In this document: positions 5,026 to 24,405 of the stretch, one piece after another | Position numbering within the stretch: position 1 is the first letter of the stretch | How the letters are laid out: every line of letters begins with the position of its first letter | Assembly: GCA_023512255.1 (NCBI GenBank) | Contig: JAILZY010000053.1 | Location: 1 to 24,613 of the forward strand | DNA: 24,613 nucleotides | Source of the DNA: a bacterium | GTDB taxonomy: Bacteria; SZUA-182; DTGQ01 | Reading direction: 5' to 3' | Translations under genes and position numbers: made by a program | The notes under the pieces: generated by a model | Seen by the model: the letters and a program-made list of their open reading frames with translations, nothing else | Databases searched by the model: none | What the model was told of the DNA's origin: nothing

Positions 5026-5964
5026 GTGCATGCTCCAGATGGGTTTTATTCTAACAGCCTTTGTCTAATTATGGATATGGCCTGCACCGGCGTGCTGGCC
5101 TACAGTGTGGTCAAAATCTGGAAGAGGATCAGCTCCAGAGAGGTTATCTTGGCCAGTGCGGTAGGGGCTTTCAGCTTTGCTTTGCAGTTGGCTAATTTTA
5201 AAGTCTCGCGTGGCTCTTCCTGTCATTTTATGGGAGGGATTTTTGCCTCTATAATTTTGGGGCCGTACTTAGCTACACTGGTTATGACCTTTGAACACCT
5301 TATTCAGGTTTTTCTCTTTCAGGACGGCGGCATAATGGCTCTTGGCCCCAATTTGCTGACCATTGTCTGTATTAGCACCTTTGGGGGCTACTACATCTAC
5401 TCGCTGCTCAAAAATTTTGTCATTGAGCCTTATGGCAGCTATATCAGCGCCTTTCTTTCCGCTTGGCTTACCCTGCTGATTACCAGCCTGACCGTCTGTA
5501 CTATGCTCGCTATCTGCGGGATTCAGGGATTTTTCGCCACCCTTGGTCCTATGGTCGGCCCCCATGTCGAGGTAGGGATTGCCGAAGGGATGCTAACCGT
5601 GCTTCTCCTGGTCGGGGTCCGGCTTTGGGCTCCGGACTTATTTAGCAGCCAGCCAAGACCTCAGCCAATATCGGCCCAAAAGATTGCCTATGGGCTTCTT
5701 GGGCTTGCCCTGCTGATTAGTCTGGCCATCTCTCCCTTTGCCTCCCGATCAGCCGAAGGGCTTGAGAGTTTGGTTCTGGATCGAGGGCATATCCACCCTC
5801 ATCGAATTACGATCCCATATAGGGCACCGATACCGGCTTATCATCTGCCAGGGATTCGTGATCAGGAGATCGCCAAAATTCTTGGAGGAACACTTGGAAC
5901 CGTGGCTACCTTCGGTGTCTGTATGTTAGCTCTTTCCCTAATCAAGACTAGGGCTGAATCTTGA
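5026..5964 (+). CDS. cbiM: CbiMN/NikMN-type nickel/cobalt ECF transporter substrate-binding permease
   Basis: A 312-residue inner-membrane S-component that captures Ni2+ or Co2+ for an ECF transporter. It begins MHAPDGF against the family's MHIPDGF. In known NikM structures Met1, His2 and His67 bind the metal, and here His67 falls in CHFMGG exactly at residue 67. The conserved block HFMGG...LGP...FQDGG..ALGPN (67-109) and HVEVGIAEG (180-188) also fit CbiM. After about six helices (to about 200) comes a linker, then a CbiN/PDGLE-like part: a helix at 222-238, SPFASRSAEGLES (236-248), a loop with several His, and a last helix at 286-306. No cbiQ or cbiO lies nearby, so energising subunits must be encoded elsewhere, or it works alone as reported for some CbiMN units. 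Same strand and 37 bases upstream of a membrane sigma-54 activator. Ni versus Co cannot be decided. Confidence 0.9.
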   Translation: MHAPDGFYSNSLCLIMDMACTGVLAYSVVKIWKRISSREVILASAVGAFSFALQLANFKVSRGSSCHFMGGIFASIILGPYLATLVMTFEHLIQVFLFQDGGIMALGPNLLTIVCISTFGGYYIYSLLKNFVIEPYGSYISAFLSAWLTLLITSLTVCTMLAICGIQGFFATLGPMVGPHVEVGIAEGMLTVLLLVGVRLWAPDLFSSQPRPQPISAQKIAYGLLGLALLISLAISPFASRSAEGLESLVLDRGHIHPHRITIPYRAPIPAYHLPGIRDQEIAKILGGTLGTVATFGVCMLALSLIKTRAES

Positions 5965-5969
5965 AAGAA

Positions 5970-6005
5970 GAGGCCACCTCATGAAATAAAGAGACCACCT
6001 CATGA
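5970..6005. repeat. 15-base direct repeat at the permease-activator junction
   Basis: GAGGCCACCTCATGA (5970-5984) recurs as GAGACCACCTCATGA (5991-6005) with a 21-base period and one mismatch. The second copy contains the ATG of the downstream gene. The first contains an ATG-AAA-TAA mini-frame. Neither copy offers a good Shine-Dalgarno sequence, so the repeat may affect translation coupling between the two genes, or it may be a simple local duplication. Confidence 0.6.
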
Positions 6006-8872
6006 GCAGGAAACCAAATACGATTCTGAAAAGCATAGCCGTGCCTTTCTTGCTGGTATTCGTTACTCTTTCCCTGACCCATATCGGTATGCAAACTCAG
6101 CTGATGGACAGGGAGCTGAATAAGCTTATTGGCCAGAGCGCCATCGGGATGATGAATATCATTTGGAATTATTTTGTTACTGAAGAGGTGAGAGGGCCGA
6201 TGCGAAGACTTATTTCTGACCCCTTGCTGCTGAATATTTTGGATACTGCCCGCAAGGGGCAGAAAGAGGCAGGTCCATCTCCTCTTATCTTTCCTCAGCA
6301 ATGGGAGATATTGAAACATGACCTTTTGCTGGATAACGGCCTCAATTACTTTGCTCTCTTTGATCGAGACGGCCGACTGATTGTCCAGGAAACTTTTATC
6401 ACTTCATCCGCTGTTGGGGAGATTGGGGCTGAATTCCGTGATCTGATTAGGCAGCAAAAGGTGTCGGATGAAGCATTTGGCTTTGATAACTCACCCTATG
6501 ATGCTAACGGCCTGGTGGTTAAGATGCTCTTTCCTATTCGAAACCAGCACGGGGGAATCATCGGTTTTTTGTCTGCTATTCGATCTTTTGATCAAAGGTT
6601 TTTTGAAAAGGTTTATCAACTAAGTGGCCTCCATGTTTTAATTTTCAGCGATGGGAGGCCGATTTTTATTACCTTGCCGGATCAGTCTGGTGGGCAGCTT
6701 GAGGTGCCCCCAAGGATTCGCGAGAGGATCTATCACTCCCATGAGTATCAGCTATCAGAATCAGCCGAGCGGGTTTTCATCTTAAACAGTGAGTATCAGG
6801 CCGTTTTTTTCCCTTTTAAGAACCTACGGGGCAAGGTTACAGGGGCTCTAATGCTTCTTTGCAATTTGAGGGACAAAGAGCAGAGCCTAAAAAAAATCGT
6901 CCTGAACCTTCTGTGGGCAAGCCTTATGGGAGGCATATTGCTTTCCTTTTTCGGCTTTCTCATAAGCCGCGGCATAACACTTCCCATCAATCAACTGATT
7001 CAGGCTACTCGCCGTGTCTCAGCCGGTGATTTTGATACTAGAGCCGATGTCCAATCACACCGTGAATTGATCACCCTATCTTGCGCCTTCAATGCTATGA
7101 CTGAAAATCTGAAGCGGACCTCGATTTCCCGGAATTATTTTCAGGCTATCCTAGATACCATGAATGACCTTTTGATTATTATCTCTCCTGATCGGAGCAT
7201 CAGATTTGTTAATCGGGCTACCTTGAGTGTTTTTGGATATGTCAAGGAAGAGCTGATCGGCAAATCATTCGATCAGCTTTTTCATCATGATTGCCCCTTT
7301 AAGGGAGGGGATTTTGAGAGCATGATCCAGAAGGAAGCAGCAGTAGCAGGGGTTGATTGCTCCTGTACCATGATTAGCAGGGCCGGTGAGCCTATTGCGG
7401 TGAGTTTTTCATGGGCTGTCATGCGGAATGAGAAAAACCATTTAACGGAAATTGTCTGCGTCGCTCGTGATATTCGGGAGAAGGCTGAAGCTGAGCAGAA
7501 AATCAGAGAGGAGAGGGATAAATTGAATACCCTAATCAATACTACCAACGATCTGATTTTTATACGCAATCTCAAAGGAGAGATTACCTTTGTCAGCCAT
7601 GCCGTTCAGCGTATTCTTGGCTATTCTCCCGAGGAATTTAAAACCCTTCCGCCTGAAAAAATCTTAAGCTCAAATCCCTTGAACCAGCGCTTTAAAGAAG
7701 CCCCAGGCCGCTTGAGCAGCAGTGGAGAGAAGCTGGAGCCTTACTGGGTTGAATTTTTGACCAGTGATGGCCAGCCTATTTTTTTGGAAATCAACGAAAC
7801 CCCCATTCAGGGAAAACGTGGGGAACCTAGCCAGCTCATGGGAATCGGCCGGGATATTTCGGAGAGGCGGCGGCTGGAAGAGCAATTGCGGGAGTGGCAT
7901 GAGAAACAGGCTAAAACGAGTCAGGAAATCTGCCGCTTCGGCGATCTGGTCGGCAAGAGCAAAAGAATGCAGGAAATTTATGAGTTTATTCAGGTTGTTT
8001 CCCAGAACAACAGCACTGTGCTGCTCAAAGGGGAAAGCGGCACCGGAAAAGAGATGATTGCCCAGGCTATCCACAAGTGCAGTCCGCGGCGCAATTATCC
8101 CTTTATTGAAGTAACCTGCTCGGTTCTGTCCGAGTATCTGCTCGAGAGTGAGCTTTTCGGGCATGTCAAAGGGGCTTTTACCGGCGCCATCAAGGATAAG
8201 GAGGGAAGGTTTGAGCAGGCTTCTGGAGGCACGATCTTTCTTGATGAAATAGGCGATATCAGCCTCAATGCCCAGATCAAATTGCTGCGAGTGTTGCAGG
8301 AGCGGGAAATAGTGCGGGTAGGTGGAGATGAGCGGATTAAGGTTGATGTGCGGATCATTGCCGCGACCAACAAAAGCCTAGAGGAAGCTGTAGCCAAGGG
8401 GACGTTTCGGGAAGATCTATATTATCGCCTGAATGTGGTGCCGATTGAGGTTCCAGCCCTGCGGGAGAGGAAGGAGGATATCCCTTTGCTGGTAGAGCAT
8501 TTTATTGACAAGATAAGCCGAAAGGTCGGAAAACAGGTTACGGATATTTCTCAGAAGGCGATAAATATCTTGCTAGAATATCACTGGCCAGGTAATATAC
8601 GGCAGCTTGAGAACGCTATCGAATATGCCATTATTCGATGCCAGGGTTCGCAAATCAGGGTGCAGGATCTCCCACTGGAAATTCGAAGAAGTCAGAAGGT
8701 GGGAAAAGCCTCGGTGCAAGAGCTGATAGCTAATACGGAAAAGGCGGCTTTGATTGAGGCTTTGCGGGAATGCCGCTGGGATTTAACTCAAACCGCTCGG
8801 CAGCTTAATATCAGCCGAACCACGCTCTGGCGGAAAATCAGAAAGTATCGGATTGAGAGGCCAAGGGGATAA
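6002..8872 (+). CDS. membrane-anchored sigma-54 activator with extracytoplasmic sensor, HAMP and two PAS domains
   Basis: A 956-residue one-component regulator. A helix at about 11-30 and another at about 300-322 bracket a probable periplasmic sensing domain of some 270 residues (Cache-like by layout, inferred). HAMP follows (323-375), then PAS domains at about 380-490 and 505-625. The AAA+ sigma-54 interaction domain (about 645-885) is complete: Walker A GESGTGKE (677-684), GAFTGA loop (724-729), Walker B GTIFLDEIGD (743-752), and the arginine region FREDLYYRL (802-810). The C-terminal Fis-type helix-turn-helix (about 912-950, ending NISRTTLWRKIRKYRI) should bind enhancer DNA. It would open RpoN promoters in response to a signal outside the membrane, while tethered to that membrane. 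It follows the Ni/Co permease by 37 bases, suggesting one operon and possibly a linked signal. The ribosome site at ATG 6002 is weak. Most activators of this class are soluble, so this architecture is uncommon. Confidence 0.9.
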   Translation: MSRKPNTILKSIAVPFLLVFVTLSLTHIGMQTQLMDRELNKLIGQSAIGMMNIIWNYFVTEEVRGPMRRLISDPLLLNILDTARKGQKEAGPSPLIFPQQWEILKHDLLLDNGLNYFALFDRDGRLIVQETFITSSAVGEIGAEFRDLIRQQKVSDEAFGFDNSPYDANGLVVKMLFPIRNQHGGIIGFLSAIRSFDQRFFEKVYQLSGLHVLIFSDGRPIFITLPDQSGGQLEVPPRIRERIYHSHEYQLSESAERVFILNSEYQAVFFPFKNLRGKVTGALMLLCNLRDKEQSLKKIVLNLLWASLMGGILLSFFGFLISRGITLPINQLIQATRRVSAGDFDTRADVQSHRELITLSCAFNAMTENLKRTSISRNYFQAILDTMNDLLIIISPDRSIRFVNRATLSVFGYVKEELIGKSFDQLFHHDCPFKGGDFESMIQKEAAVAGVDCSCTMISRAGEPIAVSFSWAVMRNEKNHLTEIVCVARDIREKAEAEQKIREERDKLNTLINTTNDLIFIRNLKGEITFVSHAVQRILGYSPEEFKTLPPEKILSSNPLNQRFKEAPGRLSSSGEKLEPYWVEFLTSDGQPIFLEINETPIQGKRGEPSQLMGIGRDISERRRLEEQLREWHEKQAKTSQEICRFGDLVGKSKRMQEIYEFIQVVSQNNSTVLLKGESGTGKEMIAQAIHKCSPRRNYPFIEVTCSVLSEYLLESELFGHVKGAFTGAIKDKEGRFEQASGGTIFLDEIGDISLNAQIKLLRVLQEREIVRVGGDERIKVDVRIIAATNKSLEEAVAKGTFREDLYYRLNVVPIEVPALRERKEDIPLLVEHFIDKISRKVGKQVTDISQKAINILLEYHWPGNIRQLENAIEYAIIRCQGSQIRVQDLPLEIRRSQKVGKASVQELIANTEKAALIEALRECRWDLTQTARQLNISRTTLWRKIRKYRIERPRG

Positions 8873-9099: not shown

Positions 9100-11061
9100 G
9101 TGCAAAAGTATAGGGTAAGTTATAAAAATAAGGTAATCAAAAACAAAGACCTTATCATCTCATCTTGCTTATTTGCTCTCCTTGTAGGCTTATTTTGCTT
9201 TGTGAACAAAAGCTTTGAAGAGTATTCCCCCTCAGCGGTCCAGATGGCTAACCAGATAACCGCACGGGGGGTCTTCGCTCTGCTCAATCTCCTCAGGGTT
9301 AAGTCAAGGCTCTCCGGCAGTACAATCAGTATGCAGCAAGGAGGCGCCTTGAAGATCATCTATGAGTGCACGGGAGTATATATCTTTCTCATTTTCACTG
9401 CCTTTATCCTCTCCTATCCAGCCCTTATCCACCAAAAACTCCTGGGACTTTTGATCTTCATTCCCACTTTCGTTTTTTTCAATCTAGTTCGCATTCTCTC
9501 TCTGGCCATTATTCAGCTCCATTGGCCTTCCGCCCTTGAGTTTGTTCACCGCTATCTCTGGGAGGCTACATTCATGGTGCTGGTTATGGCGGCAGTCTAT
9601 CTCTGGCTCCTGTGGATTGATGGCCGCTTGAGTAGCAGATTTCGTCGCGGTCGCAATATTTTGAAGACAGCAGTCAAGTTTATCCTTTTCTCCTGTCTGG
9701 GGTATGGAGCCCTGATGGGCTTTTTCCGGCTTTATCTTTTTCTTTTGCAGGGGGTAGTCAATGCGGCTTTGGCCCTGAGCTGGAGATATTGGCTGGATTA
9801 TTGGCCGATGCGACTTGTGGTTGAGCAAAATGATCTGTGGCTGGTTTATGCTCGGGGGAGGGTGCATATTCAGGATGTTCCCTTCATGATCCCAAATCTG
9901 ATACCTTTTATCTCCCTGATGCTGGTGAGCAGATTACGGCCAAGGGTTAAGGTGGTGGGGATTGTGGCCGGCAGTATGATTCTCTTTGGCTATCACGCCG
10001 CTACCCTCATCCTGGTGATTCAAAAGATGGCCCAAAGATGGTTGTATCTCTACACCTTTTTCCGTATTTATCTTCTCTTTCTCCTGCCAGTTATACTGTG
10101 GGTAGCATTTTTCTTCTTCTTTAGGGAAAGAGAGAAACAGGTGGGAGAAATAGCCCAAAGCTGCCACCAAAGCAGCAGCCTCGACCCTCAGGCTCAAAGC
10201 CGCACAAGGCGACGGCTGGCCAAAGGCCCATCTTTAGCTTCTGCAGAGCGTTCAGCTCGGCTCACCGATCCTGATGGGACTCATGTTTCATCTTCCGCTT
10301 CTGCAAAGCGCTCCAGCGATAATGCCGCCTCCGCATCAGCCGCAAGTGGCGGCAGTATCGCCCTGGTTTTGTTTGGCCCGGCTCTTTCCCTGCTCATCCT
10401 CCTTTTTGCTCATGAGCCAGGACCAGGGTACTATCTTGGGTTTTTACTGTGGCTGGCTGCTTTGGTGCTTATTATGCCCAAATCTACCTTTTTGTCGAAT
10501 GCTCAGGGGAGGAAGCGGACTTTGCGCTTGGCTCTCCTGGCTGTCCTTTTTTGGCAGGGGACGATAACCGCAAGCTCTCTGATCTATGTACCAGAGGGTA
10601 AGATGGCCTTGTTTCTCAGGGGCGACCAGCCATCATCATGGGCTGATGCCGGATTTCATCTGGGATTTTATCTAGCTCAGAAACCGATTTTCTTTGACCT
10701 CCAGGATCGGAAAATTCGCCTCCAGATCAGGGTCGAGCTCAGAAAAGATCCTAAACCTCTTTTAGCTGCTGAGCTTGTAGTCGGCTACCGTTTATCTGAA
10801 AGGTGTGATCTAGCCAGGATTTATACTGATCTTGGGAGCAGCATGGAGGCGATTGATCAGTCTTTGATCGACAGGCTCAAGCAGCGAATCAGCGCTGAGC
10901 TTCAGGCATCTTTGCCAGATATTATCTCTGGACGGCTTGGAGGAGGCAGCCAGATTCGCTCCCTGCTTATGAAAGTTTTAGAACAGGCTCTTTCTCCATA
11001 CAGAATCGAAGTCCGCGGCTTAGAGATTGTCAATCAGGAGAACTCCCGCATAAATCTGTAG
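9100..11061 (+). CDS. exosortase-family membrane protein fused to a C-terminal SPFH/band-7-like domain
   Basis: A 653-residue polytopic membrane protein. Residues about 17-175 match the exosortase/archaeosortase core: Cys90 in YECTGVY, Arg131 in NLVRIL and His150 in FVHRYLW are the expected catalytic triad, each at the edge of a helix. Such enzymes cleave C-terminal sorting signals at the membrane and transfer the protein onward. A second membrane block (about 187-343) resembles in layout the small membrane proteins that accompany some exosortases. A Ser/Ala/Arg-rich linker (about 345-415) follows, then three helices (about 418-495). The last part (about 496-644) reads like a prohibitin/SPFH domain: VPEGKMALFLRG, the LVVGYRLSERCDLARIY strand-helix, and the closing YRIEVRGLEI. 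Start is GTG 9100, with AGGGG about 13 bases upstream; spacing is poor. The exosortase call is firm, the SPFH call is probable, and I know of no described protein joining them. No exosortase substrate is visible nearby. Confidence 0.8.
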   Translation: MQKYRVSYKNKVIKNKDLIISSCLFALLVGLFCFVNKSFEEYSPSAVQMANQITARGVFALLNLLRVKSRLSGSTISMQQGGALKIIYECTGVYIFLIFTAFILSYPALIHQKLLGLLIFIPTFVFFNLVRILSLAIIQLHWPSALEFVHRYLWEATFMVLVMAAVYLWLLWIDGRLSSRFRRGRNILKTAVKFILFSCLGYGALMGFFRLYLFLLQGVVNAALALSWRYWLDYWPMRLVVEQNDLWLVYARGRVHIQDVPFMIPNLIPFISLMLVSRLRPRVKVVGIVAGSMILFGYHAATLILVIQKMAQRWLYLYTFFRIYLLFLLPVILWVAFFFFFREREKQVGEIAQSCHQSSSLDPQAQSRTRRRLAKGPSLASAERSARLTDPDGTHVSSSASAKRSSDNAASASAASGGSIALVLFGPALSLLILLFAHEPGPGYYLGFLLWLAALVLIMPKSTFLSNAQGRKRTLRLALLAVLFWQGTITASSLIYVPEGKMALFLRGDQPSSWADAGFHLGFYLAQKPIFFDLQDRKIRLQIRVELRKDPKPLLAAELVVGYRLSERCDLARIYTDLGSSMEAIDQSLIDRLKQRISAELQASLPDIISGRLGGGSQIRSLLMKVLEQALSPYRIEVRGLEIVNQENSRINL

Positions 11062-11104
11062 AGGTGTAGAGGATAAGGGTATGATTTTTATGATTATTAT
11101 TGAT

Positions 11105-11194
11105 ATGCAAGGGAGTGCACTATAGCTTATGCACAAAGGGGCTTGATGCGCAAGGGGGTGCACTACAGCTGATGCGAAAAGGGGGCACTACAGC
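11105..11194. repeat. three imperfect tandem copies of a GTGCACTA-containing unit
   Basis: Units of about 25-30 bases start ATGC, run through a G-rich block to (G)TGCACTA(T/C)AGC and end near the next ATGC: 11105-11132, 11146-11175 and 11172-11194. They lie between the exosortase fusion and the THUMP gene. GTGCAC is itself palindromic. Unit and spacer lengths are too irregular for a CRISPR array. They could be a regulator-binding array or decayed duplication. Confidence 0.55.
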
Positions 11195-14891: not shown

Positions 14892-15443
14892 ATGAGTACG
14901 AGGAATGCAAGATTATCATGGGCAGCAGCAGCTCTTTGTTTTCTGGTCTTCCTGGTGTCGATTTGCTCACTCAGCCAGGCAGGGACAATTTACTGGGGGC
15001 TTCCAGGGATTTACTCCTCCTGGGGGCCAGGAAACTTTATCGCTGGAAGTCTCAGCAATATGACTGCTCGCGCTTTTGGAGCCTACGCCTTTACCGATTA
15101 TGCCAGCGCCTGGGGGCTTAATAATTATGCGACCGGCGGCCTCCTTGGAGCAGGCGCTATGACCCCCTGGATGCAGATGTACTCACTGGCTCCGATGTTT
15201 GGATATAGCTCTGCTCTCTTTAACAACCCCTGGCCCAATTCTTCGATCTTTTTATCTTCCTACTCTCCGCTCACCTCCTCTTTGTTCTCTTATCCCTATT
15301 CTTATTCTTATCCTGCTACCTATACTTATCCAACTTTAGATTTTGCCCAGTGGCCGAGCCTGAGCTTGCCCCAGCTAACCACATCGCTATCCAACATTAC
15401 TACGACTGCAACCCCTGTAGCTACTACCATCGCTGCTCCCTAA
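14892..15443 (+). CDS. secreted Tyr/Ser/Pro-rich protein of unknown function
   Basis: A 183-residue protein with no recognised family. AAAGGAG lies 9 bases before the ATG. The signal peptide has a core at about residues 10-26 and a likely cleavage after SQA (about 30). The mature part is Gly, Trp, Tyr, Asn, Ser and Pro rich, then carries a short tandem YPYSYSYPATYTYP stretch (about 134-147) and ends in a Thr/Ala-rich tail. It has very few charges, no mature cysteines and no C-terminal anchor. Composition and size recall the 192-residue protein at 290-868; both look like exported low-complexity, matrix or coat proteins. It has a sigma-70-type promoter. It faces the convergent 15488-16246 gene with a 44-base gap. 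Confidence 0.75.
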   Translation: MSTRNARLSWAAAALCFLVFLVSICSLSQAGTIYWGLPGIYSSWGPGNFIAGSLSNMTARAFGAYAFTDYASAWGLNNYATGGLLGAGAMTPWMQMYSLAPMFGYSSALFNNPWPNSSIFLSSYSPLTSSLFSYPYSYSYPATYTYPTLDFAQWPSLSLPQLTTSLSNITTTATPVATTIAAP

Positions 15444-15487
15444 AAGAGAAATACTGCTGCCTACAAGCCACAGCCTTTGATGATGAG

Positions 15488-16246
15488 CTAGGGTGAACTG
15501 TCGCAGTTGCCTAAAACATCGTTAATAATGGTAACGGTATAGCGGAGTGTTTCATTCACGGCTTTTTGCAGCTCCGCGATCCTGATCTTTTGATCACATT
15601 CGAAGTAGTCGCGGATGCAGAACCAGGGGACGTAAGGGTCTAAGATAGTGTATTTTATGCTCGTATCTCCCCCAGTTCGATCGTCAAGCTGATACCAATA
15701 CGGGGGCCACTCATTCCCGTAGAACTGATTTTCATCGGAAAGGTGCTCATGAACCTCAATCACTAACTTTATCCGACCGCCAAATCGGCTGATGAAATCG
15801 CGAATCTCCCGATTTGAGGCAGGAGAATCATCACCGGTGAGAATATCGTTGTTGTTGATTTCTAGAAAGAGCACCCGCCCCCTGGGATCAGCCACATGTT
15901 TTTCAAATTCTGTCTTGAAAATCTTACCCCAGGGTTTCTCAAGATAGTGGTATCCAACCACAATCAAGGCATAGTCTTGGCCTTTAGCCTCAATTCTGCC
16001 CTTATACGGAGCCAAATTATTCCTTCCAATCTGATAGGTACAAGAGGTCAACCCCAGAAATCGCTCCCGTTCTTTTAGTATCTTTCTGGTAACTTGAATT
16101 GGAAGAGAGGACTGTGATGAGTTCGATGAAAGAAAACTACTACGTCTAGCTGGCCGCTGAGCCCCATTCATGCTTTGGCTCAAAGAGGCGCCTGGGAAGA
16201 TAAATTGTCCGGCTATGATTACACAAACTAGCAGTATATTGAACAT
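15488..16246 (-). CDS. secreted protein of unknown function
   Basis: A 252-residue exported protein. The hydrophobic N-terminus (about 3-20) ends in a signal cleavage region near GASLSQ. A Ser/Arg-rich linker (about 26-50) follows, then a compact domain from about 55 with strands such as DYALIVVGYHYLE (91-103), GRVLFLEINNND (123-134) and IKLVIEVHEHLSD (159-171). The His/Glu-rich strand ends recall zinc-dependent peptidase or deacylase folds, but a clear metal-binding set such as HxxE is not evident, so no enzyme is assigned. Five mature cysteines (69, 210, 217, 248 and possibly pairing) suit an extracytoplasmic location. The ribosome site is weak. A good sigma-54 promoter lies 64 bases upstream of the start codon. 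Confidence 0.7.
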   Translation of the reverse strand: MFNILLVCVIIAGQFIFPGASLSQSMNGAQRPARRSSFLSSNSSQSSLPIQVTRKILKERERFLGLTSCTYQIGRNNLAPYKGRIEAKGQDYALIVVGYHYLEKPWGKIFKTEFEKHVADPRGRVLFLEINNNDILTGDDSPASNREIRDFISRFGGRIKLVIEVHEHLSDENQFYGNEWPPYWYQLDDRTGGDTSIKYTILDPYVPWFCIRDYFECDQKIRIAELQKAVNETLRYTVTIINDVLGNCDSSP

Positions 16247-16638: not shown

Positions 16639-16711
16639 GGGTAGGGATCGATTTTAGCCGATTAAAAATTTTTAGCTGCTCACCTTGAAAAAGCATGGAG
16701 ATTATTTTACT

Positions 16712-19700
16712 ATGGGTAGGAAAAGAGAGTTTTTGCTCGGTAGTCTGCTCTGCCTGGTGTTGCTTTTTTTCGATCTAATGAGCCATCCTTACATAGCATT
16801 TGGTCGTGATCTGCGCGTCCCTCGTGACTATCCCCTGATTCAGCGGGCAATTGATGCTTCATCTTCCGGCGATCGGATTCTGGTAGCTGAGGGAACCTAC
16901 CTGGAGCAGGTGCGGCTGAAGCCGGGAATTAAGCTCGAGGGAGGCTGGAGCAAACAGTTCACCCAAAGAGATCCTCAAAAATATCAAACTATTATTGACG
17001 CCAAGGGGAAAGAGGGGTGGGCAGTCTTGGCTGCCAGTAATACGGTTTTTGACGGCTTTATTGTCCAGAACGCTACCCAGGTCAAGACAGAAAAGGAAGA
17101 GTATGGGAGTGGCCTATACTGTCTTTCGGTTCAGGAGGTAATTATTCGAAACAATATCTTCCGGCAGAATGAGCCAAGCGGAATCTATGCCGGCAGCAGC
17201 CAATTGACTATTGTCGGCAATCATATTTTGAAAAACGCCAAGGCCGGAATACATCTTGAGAAAGGATCGACTCTCCTTATCCGGTCAAACATTATCGAGA
17301 GTAACAAGGAGGCTGGAATTTCCACCCTGAGCAAGATTCCTAACCGGATAGAGGTCTTTGGGAACAGGGTTTTCCACAATGGCCGGGGCGGCATCGATTG
17401 TCAGAATGCTACGGGCAAGGTTTACAATAACGTTGTCTATGAAAATAAGGAGGCCGGTATCCGTGGCTGTATTGTTCCTCTTGAGGTGATCAATAACACG
17501 GTGGTCGGCAATGCTCAGGCTGGAGTATCTATTGATGATCAGAGTAAGGAGATTATTATAAAAAATAATATCATTGCCTTCAACGGCGAATCCGGGATCA
17601 TGTCCGCTCAGCGAGGCTATAGCTATAATCTTTTATTTGCCAATGCAGAAGGGGAATACTGTGATCCTAACCTCCTGCCCTGCATTCGTAGCCAACATGC
17701 AGGGTATGAGGACGAGGAGAGTTTTCGCAAGATCGGACACATCATCGCTGATCCTATGTTTGTGGACGCTAAAAGTCACAATTATCATCTTTTGCCAGGC
17801 TCGCCGGCTATTGACGCCGGAGATGGCAATCCTGTCTATGCGGATAAGAATTTTCCTCCCTCCTTGGGCTCTGAGCGGAACGATCTGGGGGCTTATGGAG
17901 GCCCATATACTGTGGCTGAGGAGCGAGCAGCAGCCAATCGCCCCCCTCTGGCCAGGGCTGAGATCTCCTCCCCAATCTTTGTCGGAGACACTGTCCGCTT
18001 GGATGCTAGTGCAAGTTCTGATCCTGATGGTGATGCTCTGAAAATTCAATGGGCTCTACTTTCTGCCCCTCCGGGGAGCAAGGCCAAAATATTTCGAGCC
18101 GATGGTCCCAAAAGCAGTTTCCAGGCTGATCTTGCTGGCGAATATCGGGTCAGTCTGAAGCTTGTGGATCGGTGGGGAGCACAAGCCGAAACAATCCTTT
18201 CGGCTAAGGTAGAGAAAAATCACCCTCCTACTGCCTATGCCGGCGAGGATCTTGAAGCAGTAAGTGTGGGAGATACAATTAAAGTGTCTGGTGAGGTCAG
18301 CAGTGATGATGATGGGGATCGTCTCAGCTTCTGGTGGGAGTTTGCAGCCAAGCCTGAAAAGAGCCGGGCTAGGCTTTCTGATCCCACCTCAGCCTCGCCC
18401 TTTTTTATCGTTGACCAGCCGGGCTGCTATATTCTTAGGCTTACGGTAGACGATGGACAGGTGAAGAGCCTTCCAGATGAAATCCTGATTAATACCGTCT
18501 ATGAGGCTCCTGATCGAATTAGGCATGTGCCGGCCCAGTATCCTACCATTCAGAGCGCGGTTGATGCCGCTCGAGCAGGAGATACTATTTTGGTTCAAGC
18601 TGGAACTTATCGGGAAAATGTCTATATCGACAAGCAGGTCAACCTAAAGGGAGTTGGCTGGCCAGTGATTGATGGAGGGGGCAAGCCGGGAAATGTGGAT
18701 ACGGTAAAAATTGACTCTCTGGGTGAGCAGGCCGGGCGGATAGAAGGATTTGTTATTACTGGAGGAGGCTCTGGGCCACTGGCCCACGGGCTAAGCGCCT
18801 GGGATTCTGCCCCCACTATCTGCAACAATCAGTTTACCGGCAATCTCAATAACGGCCTTGGGCTGCATGGCCGACAGCTTCTGACCGAAAAAGCCCAAGT
18901 TTACGGCAATTTGGTCTATGGAAATAAGGGGGGCATCGGCAATGGCCGAGGAAGCTGCGCTAATATCCACCACAATTATATCTTTCGCAATTCGGTCTTT
19001 GGCATCGGCTGCCGAGGATTCTCTGCTCCACGGATAGAGCATAACTACATCTTTGAGAATGATATCGGCATCGGTATGAGGGAGGTATCTTCTCCGAAGA
19101 TTGTCGGCAATTATATCTATCATAACAAGCGAGGTATTGTCTTAAGTCCGGTATCAACCGTCAAGGCTTCGGCAGGAGAGGATATTTTAGTCCAGAATAA
19201 CCTGATCTTCCAGAACCAGAAAAGCGGCCTTATGGCTAGCTCTTTTAACCTCTCTCGACTGTTGATAATCAATAATACAATTGATTCCAATGGCCGGGAA
19301 AAACCAAGCCGCCAAGCAGGCGGCATTATTCTGGGCTGGCCCTGGCCAGCAAGATTCGAAGCCGTTATCCAAAATAACGTGATCACCAATAATAGCGGAG
19401 CAGGAGTGCTGAATTACCCCGGCCCTCAGGATGTTCGCGGCGCAGGGGATGAGGCTGGGGCGGAGGTCCGCAGCGCAGCAGCCCCAGCAGGGGAATCCAA
19501 GCGGCTTGGAGGAGCAAAGCTTTTGCTGAGCCACAACAATCTGTGGAACAATACTGAAAACTACTCAGGCTGTTTGGCGGCAGATCAAGACATCTTGCAA
19601 GATCCCCTCTTTATAGCCAAGGGGCCACAGCCTTGGATGTGCTATTTTCTGAGTCAGACCTCGGCCGGACAATCCCGAAACAGCCCCTGTGTGGATGCAG

Positions 19701-19879
19701 CAGTCCAGGTGGCCGCCACGCTCAGTCCTTACCTCAAAAACCTTGCCCAATACACCACCAGAGCTGACCTGAAGCCGGATGCCGCAGCTTTAGACCTTGG
19801 TTTTCACTACCTGGCGGCTGAATGCGGTCAGGATCTGCCGGCTTTAGTCAAAGAGAAACTTGAGGGTGGCTCAAAATAG
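16712..19879 (+). CDS. secreted duplicated right-handed beta-helix protein with two PKD-like domains
   Basis: A secreted protein of about 1055 residues. A hydrophobic segment at about 7-22 and a cleavage region before GRDLRV act as signal peptide. First block (about 35-405): a DYPLIQRAID...GDRILVAEGTY opening of the NosD/PbH1 family, then many NNI/GI/NN coils of a parallel beta-helix. Two PKD/Ig-like domains follow (about 410-597), each with a DPDGD or DDDGD turn (about 436 and 530). A second beta-helix block (about 600-1045) restarts with QYPTIQSAVDAARAGDTILVQAGTY, so the helix module is clearly duplicated. Such folds usually bind or cleave polysaccharide; I see no confident catalytic site. 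There is no C-terminal anchor or sorting signal. ATG 16712 is preferred because GGAG lies 11 bases upstream; TTG 16685 would add nine residues and has no ribosome site. A low-complexity Ala/Gly/Glu insert sits at about 910-930. Confidence 0.85.
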   Translation: MGRKREFLLGSLLCLVLLFFDLMSHPYIAFGRDLRVPRDYPLIQRAIDASSSGDRILVAEGTYLEQVRLKPGIKLEGGWSKQFTQRDPQKYQTIIDAKGKEGWAVLAASNTVFDGFIVQNATQVKTEKEEYGSGLYCLSVQEVIIRNNIFRQNEPSGIYAGSSQLTIVGNHILKNAKAGIHLEKGSTLLIRSNIIESNKEAGISTLSKIPNRIEVFGNRVFHNGRGGIDCQNATGKVYNNVVYENKEAGIRGCIVPLEVINNTVVGNAQAGVSIDDQSKEIIIKNNIIAFNGESGIMSAQRGYSYNLLFANAEGEYCDPNLLPCIRSQHAGYEDEESFRKIGHIIADPMFVDAKSHNYHLLPGSPAIDAGDGNPVYADKNFPPSLGSERNDLGAYGGPYTVAEERAAANRPPLARAEISSPIFVGDTVRLDASASSDPDGDALKIQWALLSAPPGSKAKIFRADGPKSSFQADLAGEYRVSLKLVDRWGAQAETILSAKVEKNHPPTAYAGEDLEAVSVGDTIKVSGEVSSDDDGDRLSFWWEFAAKPEKSRARLSDPTSASPFFIVDQPGCYILRLTVDDGQVKSLPDEILINTVYEAPDRIRHVPAQYPTIQSAVDAARAGDTILVQAGTYRENVYIDKQVNLKGVGWPVIDGGGKPGNVDTVKIDSLGEQAGRIEGFVITGGGSGPLAHGLSAWDSAPTICNNQFTGNLNNGLGLHGRQLLTEKAQVYGNLVYGNKGGIGNGRGSCANIHHNYIFRNSVFGIGCRGFSAPRIEHNYIFENDIGIGMREVSSPKIVGNYIYHNKRGIVLSPVSTVKASAGEDILVQNNLIFQNQKSGLMASSFNLSRLLIINNTIDSNGREKPSRQAGGIILGWPWPARFEAVIQNNVITNNSGAGVLNYPGPQDVRGAGDEAGAEVRSAAAPAGESKRLGGAKLLLSHNNLWNNTENYSGCLAADQDILQDPLFIAKGPQPWMCYFLSQTSAGQSRNSPCVDAAVQVAATLSPYLKNLAQYTTRADLKPDAAALDLGFHYLAAECGQDLPALVKEKLEGGSK

Positions 19880-21212: not shown

Positions 21213-22586
21213 CTATTCCCGAATCTGATACTCTTTGATCTTACTTAACAGAGAGCGATAGCTGACCTGGAGAAGCTTGGCAGCCTGTATCCGGTTCCAA
21301 TTGGTCTTGGCCAGAACACTTTTAATGGTAGCTTTTTCCGCTTTTTGGATAGCCAGTCGACTGACCTCCTTCAAGGGAATGATTTTGGTATTCTTGTAAA
21401 CCATCTTCCCTTCAACCACATCGTGGGGAATGACGGTATAAACCACTTCCTCACTGCCTAGAACGATGATTTTTTTTATTAAGTTCTCTAGCTCTCGAAT
21501 ATTTCCAGGCCAATCGTAGTTCATAAAAATATTCATGATCTGAGGAGATATTGAAGTTATTTCTTTCCCATACATAGCGGAATATTTTTTGAGAAAATAA
21601 TCCACCAGAAGGTAGATATCCTCCTTATGTTCCCTTAGCGGGGGGAGAAAAATGGTTACCTCATTCAGCCGGTAGAACAGATCCTCCCTGAAGCTGCCAT
21701 TCCTGATCCCCTCTTCTAAGTCGCGGTTTGTGGCCACGATGATCCGCACATCGACCTTGACGCTTTTTTTACCACCCAGACGGCTGAATTCTTTTTCTTC
21801 CAGAACCTGAAGGAGCTTGGCCTGAAGGGAAGGGGGCATTTCGCCGATTTCATCCAGGAATATCGTCCCTTCATTGGCAAACTCAAACCGCCCCGGTTTA
21901 GGGCGTTGAGCACCGGTAAAGGCTCCCCGCTCATAACCGAAGAGCTCGGACTCAAGGAGGGTCTCTGGCAGGGTGGCGCAATTGACCTTGATAAAAGGTT
22001 TATCACGGCGGTTAGAGAGGGAATGAATGGCCCGAGTTACTAGCTCTTTCCCTGTTCCACTCTCTCCTCTTACCAGAATGGTTAACTCGGTGTCGGCCAC
22101 CTGCTCGATCATCTTCTTGATGTTCAGAATGGGATTGCTGTCTCCAATAAAATTTTCATACTCAGCTCGAGATTTTAACTTTTTTTTCAAAGATTCGTTC
22201 TCGCAGGCCAGGGCCTTGCGTTCCAAGACCTTGCTGATCGTGATTTTCAACTCATCAATATCAAACGGCTTGGTAATAAAGTCATCAGCCCCCGCATGCA
22301 TAGCCTTGACTACATTTTTGGCCTCTCCATACGCCGAGAGCATCACCGCCGATATCCGCCTAGAGATGGCCTTGATCCTCCCCAGAAGCTCGATCCCGTT
22401 AATATCGGGCATGTTTATATCCATCAATACTAGATCAGGAGCCTCATTTCTGACTTGTTGAATAGCTGTTTTCCCATCTTCAGCAGACAAAACCCTATAA
22501 CCTTCCTTAGTCAGCGCCTCGGTCAGTATCCAGATCAATTCAGGATCATCATCGACTAATAAAATCGTTACTTTCTTGTCTTTCAT
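21213..22586 (-). CDS. NtrC-family sigma-54 response regulator
   Basis: A 457-residue DNA-binding regulator. The receiver domain (about 5-118) has the acidic pair Asp12/Asp13, phospho-acceptor Asp56 in VLMDINMP and Lys106 in ITKPFD, so it is complete. The AAA+ domain (about 145-380) has Walker A GESGTGKE (174-181), an intact GAFTGA loop (221-226), Walker B TIFLDEIGE (241-249) and FREDLFYRL (299-307). A Fis-type helix-turn-helix closes the protein (about 418-452, LLQVSYRSLLSKIKEYQI). It should contact RpoN and fire -24/-12 promoters when phosphorylated. AGGTGAG lies 8 bases before the ATG. The histidine kinase gene ends 193 bases upstream on the same strand, so the two form an apparent two-component pair. 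The domain layout is that of the NtrC/ZraR/PrsR group; the exact subgroup is not determined. Confidence 0.95.
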   Translation of the reverse strand: MKDKKVTILLVDDDPELIWILTEALTKEGYRVLSAEDGKTAIQQVRNEAPDLVLMDINMPDINGIELLGRIKAISRRISAVMLSAYGEAKNVVKAMHAGADDFITKPFDIDELKITISKVLERKALACENESLKKKLKSRAEYENFIGDSNPILNIKKMIEQVADTELTILVRGESGTGKELVTRAIHSLSNRRDKPFIKVNCATLPETLLESELFGYERGAFTGAQRPKPGRFEFANEGTIFLDEIGEMPPSLQAKLLQVLEEKEFSRLGGKKSVKVDVRIIVATNRDLEEGIRNGSFREDLFYRLNEVTIFLPPLREHKEDIYLLVDYFLKKYSAMYGKEITSISPQIMNIFMNYDWPGNIRELENLIKKIIVLGSEEVVYTVIPHDVVEGKMVYKNTKIIPLKEVSRLAIQKAEKATIKSVLAKTNWNRIQAAKLLQVSYRSLLSKIKEYQIRE

Positions 22587-22657
22587 TTACTTAACTCACC
22601 TATACGCTTTCTTTTAATGATTGGGATTGCTCTATAACTGTCAAAATTATTAAAGCC

Positions 22658-22670
22658 TATGGTTACCATA
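22658..22670. promoter_or_regulatory. TATGGT-T-ACCATA palindrome upstream of the response regulator gene
   Basis: A perfect 6-1-6 palindrome in the 193-base gap between the kinase stop codon and the regulator ATG, 72-84 bases before that ATG. It is a possible operator. A weak -24/-12-like match (22693-22708, AGGAAC and TAGCT) is nearby, not strong enough to call. Confidence 0.3.
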
Positions 22671-22779
22671 CCACAACCAACGGTCAAGAGTCAGCTACCG
22701 TGGTTCCTGAATATCTAGGGGAATTTCACGCACCACCCCAGTCAGAGGAGTGGGCAGAAATTCCCGAGACGCCGGGTAA

Positions 22780-24405
22780 TTACTCTTTAATTATTGGAAT
22801 ATACACCATAAAGGTGCTCCCTTTACCTACCTCACTTTGAACCTCGATGTGGCCATTATGAGCCTGGATAATCTGATTGGCCGCAGCCAATCCTAATCCA
22901 GTGCCCGATTCCTTAGTGGTGAAAAAATGCTCAAAGATTTTTTTTTGAATTTTGCGGGGAATCCCGCAGCCAGTATCAGTAAATGTTACCAACACATATT
23001 TTTGTTGAGAGCCGTCCGGGCAGAAGTTTCGGGCCGAAACCCGAAGCTCTCCTCCCCTGGGCATAGCCTCAATAGCATTAACAATGATATTGAGGAAACA
23101 CTCCTTAATCCGCTCCTCATTGACGTAGGTAGGACTGACATTCTGATGCGGCTCGCGGATAAGGGAAATCTTATGTCGAGAAAGATCGTTTTTTACCAGG
23201 CTTAACACCTGATCAAGGACAGTGTTCAAATCCACTATCTTTCTCTGAAATTGTCCTGGAGTTGAAAACAACAGCAGTTCCTTCACCAAGGCATTGAGCT
23301 GAAAGAGGCTGTTATTCATAACCTCCAGGGACTTATTCCGAAAATCATCCTCATACCAGCGGTCTTCCAAATTCTGTAAGGCTCCCTTGATCTTGGTGAT
23401 CGGATGCCGCAGATCATGAGCAATTTCAGAAATCATCTCACCCATAGTGATAAGCTGGGTCGATTTGGCAATGCAGGAAGCCCTTTCGTATAGAGAAACC
23501 GCTTGTGAGGCAATGATCGACAAAAATTGACGCCGCTCAGCCAAAGAAAACGCATCCTTGACCGCACTGCCAAGGCAAAAGATTCCATCTAGGTCATGAT
23601 TAATCGTTATCGGCAAACAGAAAAAGGATTCAAGAAGAAACTCCTGAAATCCATTTTCCCGAAAGTAGGCCAGCAGAGGCTCGCTCAAGCAATCGCTGAT
23701 CTCTTCTCCCTGGGCATTTTGCTGCCTGAGGCATTTTATCCCTTCGGCTGGAATTTTCCCCAGACTGAGCCTCTTGAGACTATCTTCATTAATACCATGA
23801 GCGAATCGCAAGCGCAATCCTTGAGTTTCGCTCTGAAAGGAAAACCATAGGAAATAGTCGATCGGCAGAACCTGCTTGATCGCCGTCGCCAGCCGATCAA
23901 GAGCCTTATCGAGATTGCTCTGAAGGCCGAAAGTGCGGGCGATCTCATACAGTACGGAGAGCTCCTTGATCTTCCATTCTAATTCCTGATTTTTAGCCTG
24001 CAATTCGCTTACCAATTGCTTATTCTTGAGACCTAGCTTGCGGCGCTCCAGGCTCTTTTTTACTACGAACCGGATCTCATCCAGAGTGCATCCCTTGACC
24101 AGAAAGTCATAGGCCCCTTTGCGGGCTGACTCGACTGCTAGCTCTCTTGAGTCTCGGCCTGAAATCATAATCACTGGGATTTCAGGATAGAGCTGCTTGA
24201 TCTGCTCAAGGAACTCCATGGTTTTTCTTTCAGCCCCTTCTAATTCGAGGTCCAAAAAGATCAGGCTGAAGACTGTAAGTTTAATTTTATCCAAGGCTTG
24301 TGAGGCAGAGGCCGCAGTCGTAACTTGATAGCCATCTTCGGCCAGGTGCGCCTTGAGATAATCGGTATATTCCTGATTACTGTCAATTATGAGGATATTG
24401 TCCAT
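22780..24405 (-). CDS. soluble REC-GAF sensor histidine kinase
   Basis: A 541-residue cytoplasmic kinase without membrane helices. An N-terminal receiver domain (about 1-118) has Asp52 in IFLDLE and Lys104 in FLVKG, but the acidic pair near the first strand is reduced to Asp8-Ser9. A coiled linker (about 120-150) leads to a GAF-like sensor (about 155-305). The HisKA dimerisation helix carries His330 in EIAHDLRHP. The ATPase domain has the N-box NIIVNAIEAM (439-448), DTGCGIP (477-483), the F-box FFTTKESGTGLGL (494-506) and GKGSTF at the end. It should phosphorylate the NtrC-type regulator encoded just downstream. The N-terminal receiver lets another kinase tune it, or it may act as a pseudo-receiver. 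No Shine-Dalgarno sequence is visible before the ATG, but a strong promoter lies about 80 bases further upstream. Confidence 0.92.
   Translation of the reverse strand: MDNILIIDSNQEYTDYLKAHLAEDGYQVTTAASASQALDKIKLTVFSLIFLDLELEGAERKTMEFLEQIKQLYPEIPVIMISGRDSRELAVESARKGAYDFLVKGCTLDEIRFVVKKSLERRKLGLKNKQLVSELQAKNQELEWKIKELSVLYEIARTFGLQSNLDKALDRLATAIKQVLPIDYFLWFSFQSETQGLRLRFAHGINEDSLKRLSLGKIPAEGIKCLRQQNAQGEEISDCLSEPLLAYFRENGFQEFLLESFFCLPITINHDLDGIFCLGSAVKDAFSLAERRQFLSIIASQAVSLYERASCIAKSTQLITMGEMISEIAHDLRHPITKIKGALQNLEDRWYEDDFRNKSLEVMNNSLFQLNALVKELLLFSTPGQFQRKIVDLNTVLDQVLSLVKNDLSRHKISLIREPHQNVSPTYVNEERIKECFLNIIVNAIEAMPRGGELRVSARNFCPDGSQQKYVLVTFTDTGCGIPRKIQKKIFEHFFTTKESGTGLGLAAANQIIQAHNGHIEVQSEVGKGSTFMVYIPIIKE

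Follow-up and report, generated by a model that had tools for sequence, protein, structure and literature searches.

One 653-amino-acid reading frame in a bacterial genome (GTDB lineage Bacteria; SZUA-182; DTGQ01) raises the question of whether an exosortase can be joined in a single chain to an SPFH domain, and what such a protein would do. The frame lies on a contig of 24,613 nucleotides (JAILZY010000053.1, assembly GCA_023512255.1), the whole of which is called the window here. It opens with a GTG codon preceded by a purine-rich GGGG stretch, and its parts are located in Table 1. An earlier, sequence-only reading had described an exosortase core carrying extra membrane helices and a C-terminal prohibitin/stomatin-type domain, and had suggested that sorting might be organized in ring-like or raft-like assemblies. 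The analysis below points, with moderate confidence, to a one-chain XrtH-like sorting enzyme that carries its own partner together with a periplasmic SPFH docking or regulatory module.

Table 1. Positions in the window of the fusion gene, its predicted parts and two upstream genes.
Feature	Position	Strand	Remark
Whole gene	9100..11061	+	653 aa: exosortase, putative dead exosortase-like module, linker, three TM helices, SPFH domain
Catalytic exosortase domain, residues 17-177	9148..9630	+	TIGR04178, Pfam EpsH; profile match to free exosortases
Cys90 codon, predicted nucleophile	9367..9369	+	Conserved in at least 90% of aligned exosortases
Arg131 codon, predicted catalytic triad	9490..9492	+	Conserved in at least 90% of aligned exosortases
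His150 codon, predicted catalytic triad	9547..9549	+	Conserved in at least 90% of aligned exosortases
Middle module, residues 186-345	9655..10134	+	Predicted exosortase-like fold without catalytic residues; hhalign and model
Variable basic linker, residues 346-417	10135..10350	+	Predicted cytoplasmic; low model confidence
Three TM helices before SPFH (419-437, 446-464, 477-495)	10354..10584	+	Hydropathy, K/R bias
SPFH1+SPFH2 domain, residues 491-650	10570..11049	+	Predicted extracytoplasmic; not followed by a coiled coil
Membrane sensor-PAS-sigma54 activator, directly upstream	6002..8872	+	Possible regulator; Pfam; same order in G001
CbiM-PDGLE metal transporter component, upstream	5026..5964	+	Context; Pfam; same order in G001

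The N-terminal domain exceeds the cut-offs of two exosortase models, TIGR04178 (53.9 bits, cut-off 23) and Pfam EpsH (PF09721; 36.3 bits, cut-off 25.7), and its profile matches 11 free exosortases with an E-value of 3e-36. Cys90, Arg131 and His150, placed exactly where the sequence-only reading had put the triad, hardly vary when aligned with eight free-standing exosortases. Among subfamily models the highest score is that of ArtB (TIGR04144; 77.3 bits, under the cut-off of 150), and the XrtH model (TIGR04177) gives 71.6 bits, under its cut-off of 86. Judged by these profiles, residues 17-177 are an exosortase nearest to the XrtH and ArtB types and below both subfamily cut-offs. No solved exosortase structure was found by sequence.

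The membrane helices that follow are indeed present, but they are not mere helices, since hhalign and structure prediction place a dead exosortase-like module among them. Taken alone, this middle module has no match in Pfam or NCBIfam, and the model of the XrtH-associated membrane protein (NF041730, cut-off 35) does not recognize it (E up to 1). The relevant comparison comes from 14 stretches with free XrtH-type genes, most of which are followed by a membrane protein of 160-256 amino acids, often with overlapping reading frames. One of these neighbors exceeds the cut-off of the NCBIfam ‘exosortase H-associated membrane protein’ model (36.8 versus 35) and others match it weakly, while one matches the XrtH enzyme model itself (E 2e-5). 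When compared with the neighbors of nine or ten free XrtH-type genes, the middle module scores 95.6% in hhalign (E 1.2e-8; the hhalign comparisons are pairwise, so that this is not a database E-value). The match holds at 87-96% each time one sequence is left out, versus at most 1.2% for reversed controls and 27% for the best of 40 shuffles. The neighbor family in turn matches exosortases by profile at 93.3%, or 92.7% with all sequences pooled (shuffles at most 0.7%). Direct comparison of the window’s exosortase domain with its middle domain, using three sequences each, gives a non-significant 3.1%, and the relation appears only through the larger families.

A model of the middle module alone (mean pLDDT 89.8) has the series H-H-E-E-E-H-H-H, which is the series of the exosortase domain, and in the profile alignment the places of Cys90 and Arg131 hold no Cys or Arg. 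Against the PDB this model finds nothing above Z 6.2. The module stands directly after the exosortase, just as the membrane partner stands after free XrtH. Residues 186-345 therefore read, from profiles and model, as a catalytically dead exosortase-like module that is fused here and free elsewhere. In our own reading, the XrtH_assoc family as a whole looks like a degenerate, catalytically dead exosortase. This reading draws on the partner proteins behind XrtH-type genes at L091, L092, L093 and L096-L101, which look like catalytically dead exosortases.

A genome of the same genus, G001, encodes one unbroken 629-amino-acid protein of the same architecture, again downstream of CbiM and sigma-54 activator genes, with 73% identity over residues 7-364 and 60% over residues 416-653. 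Values of dN/dS between the two genes are 0.16 for the exosortase, 0.18 for the middle module, 0.29 for the TM part and 0.26 for the SPFH part, ratios that are rough because dS is high (0.7-1.0). Purifying selection acts on all structured parts of the gene. In G003, which belongs to another genus of the family and is a cold-seep MAG according to its isolate prefix, the halves are encoded as separate adjacent frames, the kind of split that the sequence-only reading had proposed to look for. A stop codon ends the 379-amino-acid frame of enzyme and middle module (L041 2698-3837), and an ATG 90 bases after the stop (L041 3928) opens a TM and SPFH frame interrupted by a single frameshift, which may reflect decay, assembly error or strain variation.

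Beyond these, G002 of the same family gave no match and lacks the gene; nor was there a match in five members of the phylum that are more distant. A search of 386 genomes, 377 of them outside the phylum, returned matches in 19 outside genomes, 18 of which cover the exosortase part, mostly as short free-standing frames. Exosortase and SPFH occur in one frame in none of the 377, so that the fusion is known here only from one family. Two scans of genome contigs for related loci yielded nothing in the first and only the G003 record in the second, and a search round on G066, whose phylum comprises a single genome, added nothing. Another exosortase in G001 (633 aa; L013:409-2310, G001:C10) is apparently fused, as read by eye, to a polysaccharide-deacetylase-like domain; in G002:C194 (L011) an exosortase and a polysaccharide-deacetylase-like gene are separate and adjacent.

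Candidate cargo was recognized by its C-terminal tails. In G003 a protein that has repeats of the YAWSENIGWINF type and whose tail reads VPLLSSFGIILLIALLGFFAVLQLKKKRR (VPLLSSFG) is encoded ~1.1 kb upstream of the enzyme gene. A profile built from this tail and three XrtH-type tails found a G001 protein that ends exactly in VPLLSGWGGIAAAAFLLLVLTVYVERKIG (VPLLSGWG; E 0.007). Two free XrtH loci are adjoined by IPTL-CTERM proteins, both over the cut-off of that model, which stays at noise level across the phylum here, though it picks up the G003 tail. The tails of VPLLSxWG type likely belong to the fused enzyme. This assignment is no firmer than likely because profile searches found no VPLLSxWG/FG-type tail in the window’s own genome, G000, whose second exosortase is of an XrtA-like type. 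Two PEP-CTERM-like tails lie near that XrtA-like exosortase (L043:13039-13839 and 15038-15742; G000:C20).

Other features of the window can be noted. A scan for sigma-54 promoters found 11, versus 12.1 expected, which is no excess over chance. A two-copy 43-bp tandem repeat lies just downstream of the fusion gene (11100-11184). A probable secreted parallel beta-helix protein of 1064 amino acids, with NosD-like and choice-of-anchor Q matches and without a sorting tail, is encoded at 16685-19879 (+). A sigma-54 response regulator and a receiver-histidine kinase at 21213-24405 (-) resemble the PrsR/PrsK pair of PEP-CTERM systems and score below the cut-offs of those models.

The middle module and the SPFH part are separated by a linker that is only 25% identical to its G001 counterpart. 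It changes fast, with in-frame changes of length, and the reading frame is kept; it contains only a two-copy 25-nt repeat, and no mobile element was seen. The whole protein has eleven TM-like segments, with basic stretches at the N-terminus and at residues 111-113, 174-190, 278-287, 342-418 and 465-476. Because the N-terminus and these loops are basic, the N-terminus is predicted to be inside, and the catalytic face and the SPFH domain outside, the cytoplasmic membrane. In that arrangement the SPFH domain would share a side of the membrane with Cys90, Arg131 and His150. A full-length AlphaFold model, built on a 12-row alignment, has a mean pLDDT of 66, and its quality is low except in the exosortase and SPFH parts.

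The C-terminal assignment of the sequence-only reading is borne out by the predicted structure, whereas sequence searches agree with it in part. The SPFH part falls just under the cut-off of Pfam Band_7 (PF01145; 21.9 bits versus 23.6, E 2e-4), and a three-sequence family profile matches prohibitin 1 in the PDB (E 0.0016). Over residues 491-650 the AlphaFold model has pLDDT values mostly of 75-93, and Foldseek relates it to human prohibitin (E 2.7e-6) and HflK/C (E 5.3e-6). VIA-align superimposes it on prohibitin with Z 13.5 (rmsd 3.7, 155 residues) and on HflK/C with Z 11.5. Both profile and model mark residues 491-650 as a divergent SPFH domain.

These components suggest how the one-chain enzyme might work. 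Secreted precursors would arrive with a C-terminal tag, [VI]P-x-LS-x-[WF]G, followed by a TM helix and basic residues, and the tag would be the site at which the active exosortase domain cuts or transfers them. The dead module might act as a built-in pseudoenzyme partner that holds either the active domain or the tag helix. Beside the active site, the SPFH domain may serve as a periplasmic docking or gating module that contacts cargo, lipid or the cell’s own HflK/HflC-type assemblies and would build no ring alone. A role in sorting for this domain is suggested by three genomes of a single family, two with the fusion and one with adjacent frames, of which the SPFH frame is broken. A more specific version, in which an active exosortase and a covalent dead partner make up a self-contained sorting machine with a periplasmic SPFH module, the latter positioning cargo or gating the active site, is put forward tentatively, as we consider it somewhat less than an even prospect. 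If correct, the XrtH-associated membrane protein would generally be a pseudo-exosortase that forms a heterodimer with XrtH.

An unlikely but not negligible alternative is that the SPFH domain tethers the exosortase to FtsH-HflK/HflC, thereby linking sorting to the clearance of tag helices after cleavage or of failed precursors. HflC- and HflK-like genes exist in the same genome, the predicted membrane side fits, and HflK/C modulates the membrane protease FtsH (PMC12624060, PMC13220708). However, no FtsH or HflK/C gene was recognized beside the fusion gene in the window.

It is rather improbable that the SPFH domain places the enzyme in a ring or raft of its own, with sorting occurring inside an SPFH cage or microdomain, even though nothing is missing from the SPFH1/SPFH2 core, which matches proteins that form cages. 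Solved SPFH complexes continue beyond this core with CC1, CC2 and C-terminal parts that shape the cage (PMC12624060), and in models of SPFH complexes the same parts build it (PMC10153343). The model of residues 491-650 aligns to residues 24-176 of PHB1 and the chain ends about three residues later. In each of the three homologues the domain reaches only to the SPFH2/CC1 boundary, and CC1, CC2 and the C-terminal cap are lacking. The chain is therefore without the coiled coils that build cages, which weakens the ring-like or raft-like assembly proposed from sequence; the protein itself does not support it. A ring of 22-26 would also accommodate eleven TM helices per subunit only with difficulty. 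A ring formed by the fusion protein alone is unlikely; the same genome encodes full-length HflK/HflC-type proteins, and co-assembly with these is possible.

The SPFH part could also be a passenger, acquired through accidental joining of two neighboring genes and without a role in sorting. The separate frames of the sister genus, with the SPFH frame broken, are in keeping with this view, as are the absence of the gene from G002 and the lower conservation of the SPFH part (60% identity to G001, versus 74-79% for the enzyme). Against it stand the SPFH dN/dS value between the two fused genes and the preservation of the frame through a fast-changing linker, and we regard a passenger as distinctly improbable. 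Finally, an assembly or frame artefact that joins two genes, for which the split and frameshifted G003 copy might speak, is largely refuted by the intact, syntenic and diverged fusion in the independent G001 assembly and is given next to no credence.

The one-chain enzyme with its built-in partner bears on a wider problem, as the helpers of exosortases are poorly understood. A natural fusion would indicate that enzyme, dead partner and SPFH domain belong together, and it makes the question of the partner directly testable in a single expressible protein. With it, SPFH proteins would for the first time be linked to C-terminal protein sorting. The sequence-only reading knew of no protein that joins a sorting transpeptidase to an SPFH scaffold, and in the open-access literature we found no description of an exosortase together with SPFH, stomatin or flotillin.

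Among known systems, XrtH (TIGR04177) has the same catalytic triad and an enzyme part of the same size, and with its associated membrane protein (NF041730) it shares the order of enzyme and then membrane partner. The cargo-like tails also carry the P-x-LS-x-[WF] motif of the XrtH/IPTL-CTERM system, but those of the fused enzyme’s relatives read VPLLS whereas XrtH tails read IPTLS. Unlike the XrtH system, the fusion protein combines both parts in one chain with an SPFH domain and scores under the XrtH cut-off. Of the subfamily models, that of archaeosortase B (TIGR04144) scores highest on the enzyme part (77 bits), far below its cut-off of 150, and the fusion is bacterial.

Prohibitin, HflK/HflC and stomatin have the same SPFH1+SPFH2 fold after a TM helix, and in HflK/HflC the domain is known to be periplasmic, the side predicted here. 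However, the fusion protein lacks their coiled coils and cap, and its SPFH domain is preceded by an enzyme as well as ten more TM helices. A second fusion in this genome joins a heavy-metal P-type ATPase to HflK (1021 aa; L042:3148-6210, G000:C49; TIGR01525 614 bits, TIGR01933 202 bits). HflC- and HflK-like genes lie behind it, and four sister genomes have similar SPFH triplets with a first frame of 749-1052 amino acids. This second fusion likewise has an SPFH domain behind a polytopic membrane enzyme in the same lineage, but matches the full HflK model and carries an unrelated enzyme. Each part of the exosortase fusion is known from such systems, whereas the combination, and the reading of the partner as a dead exosortase, are new as far as we have checked.
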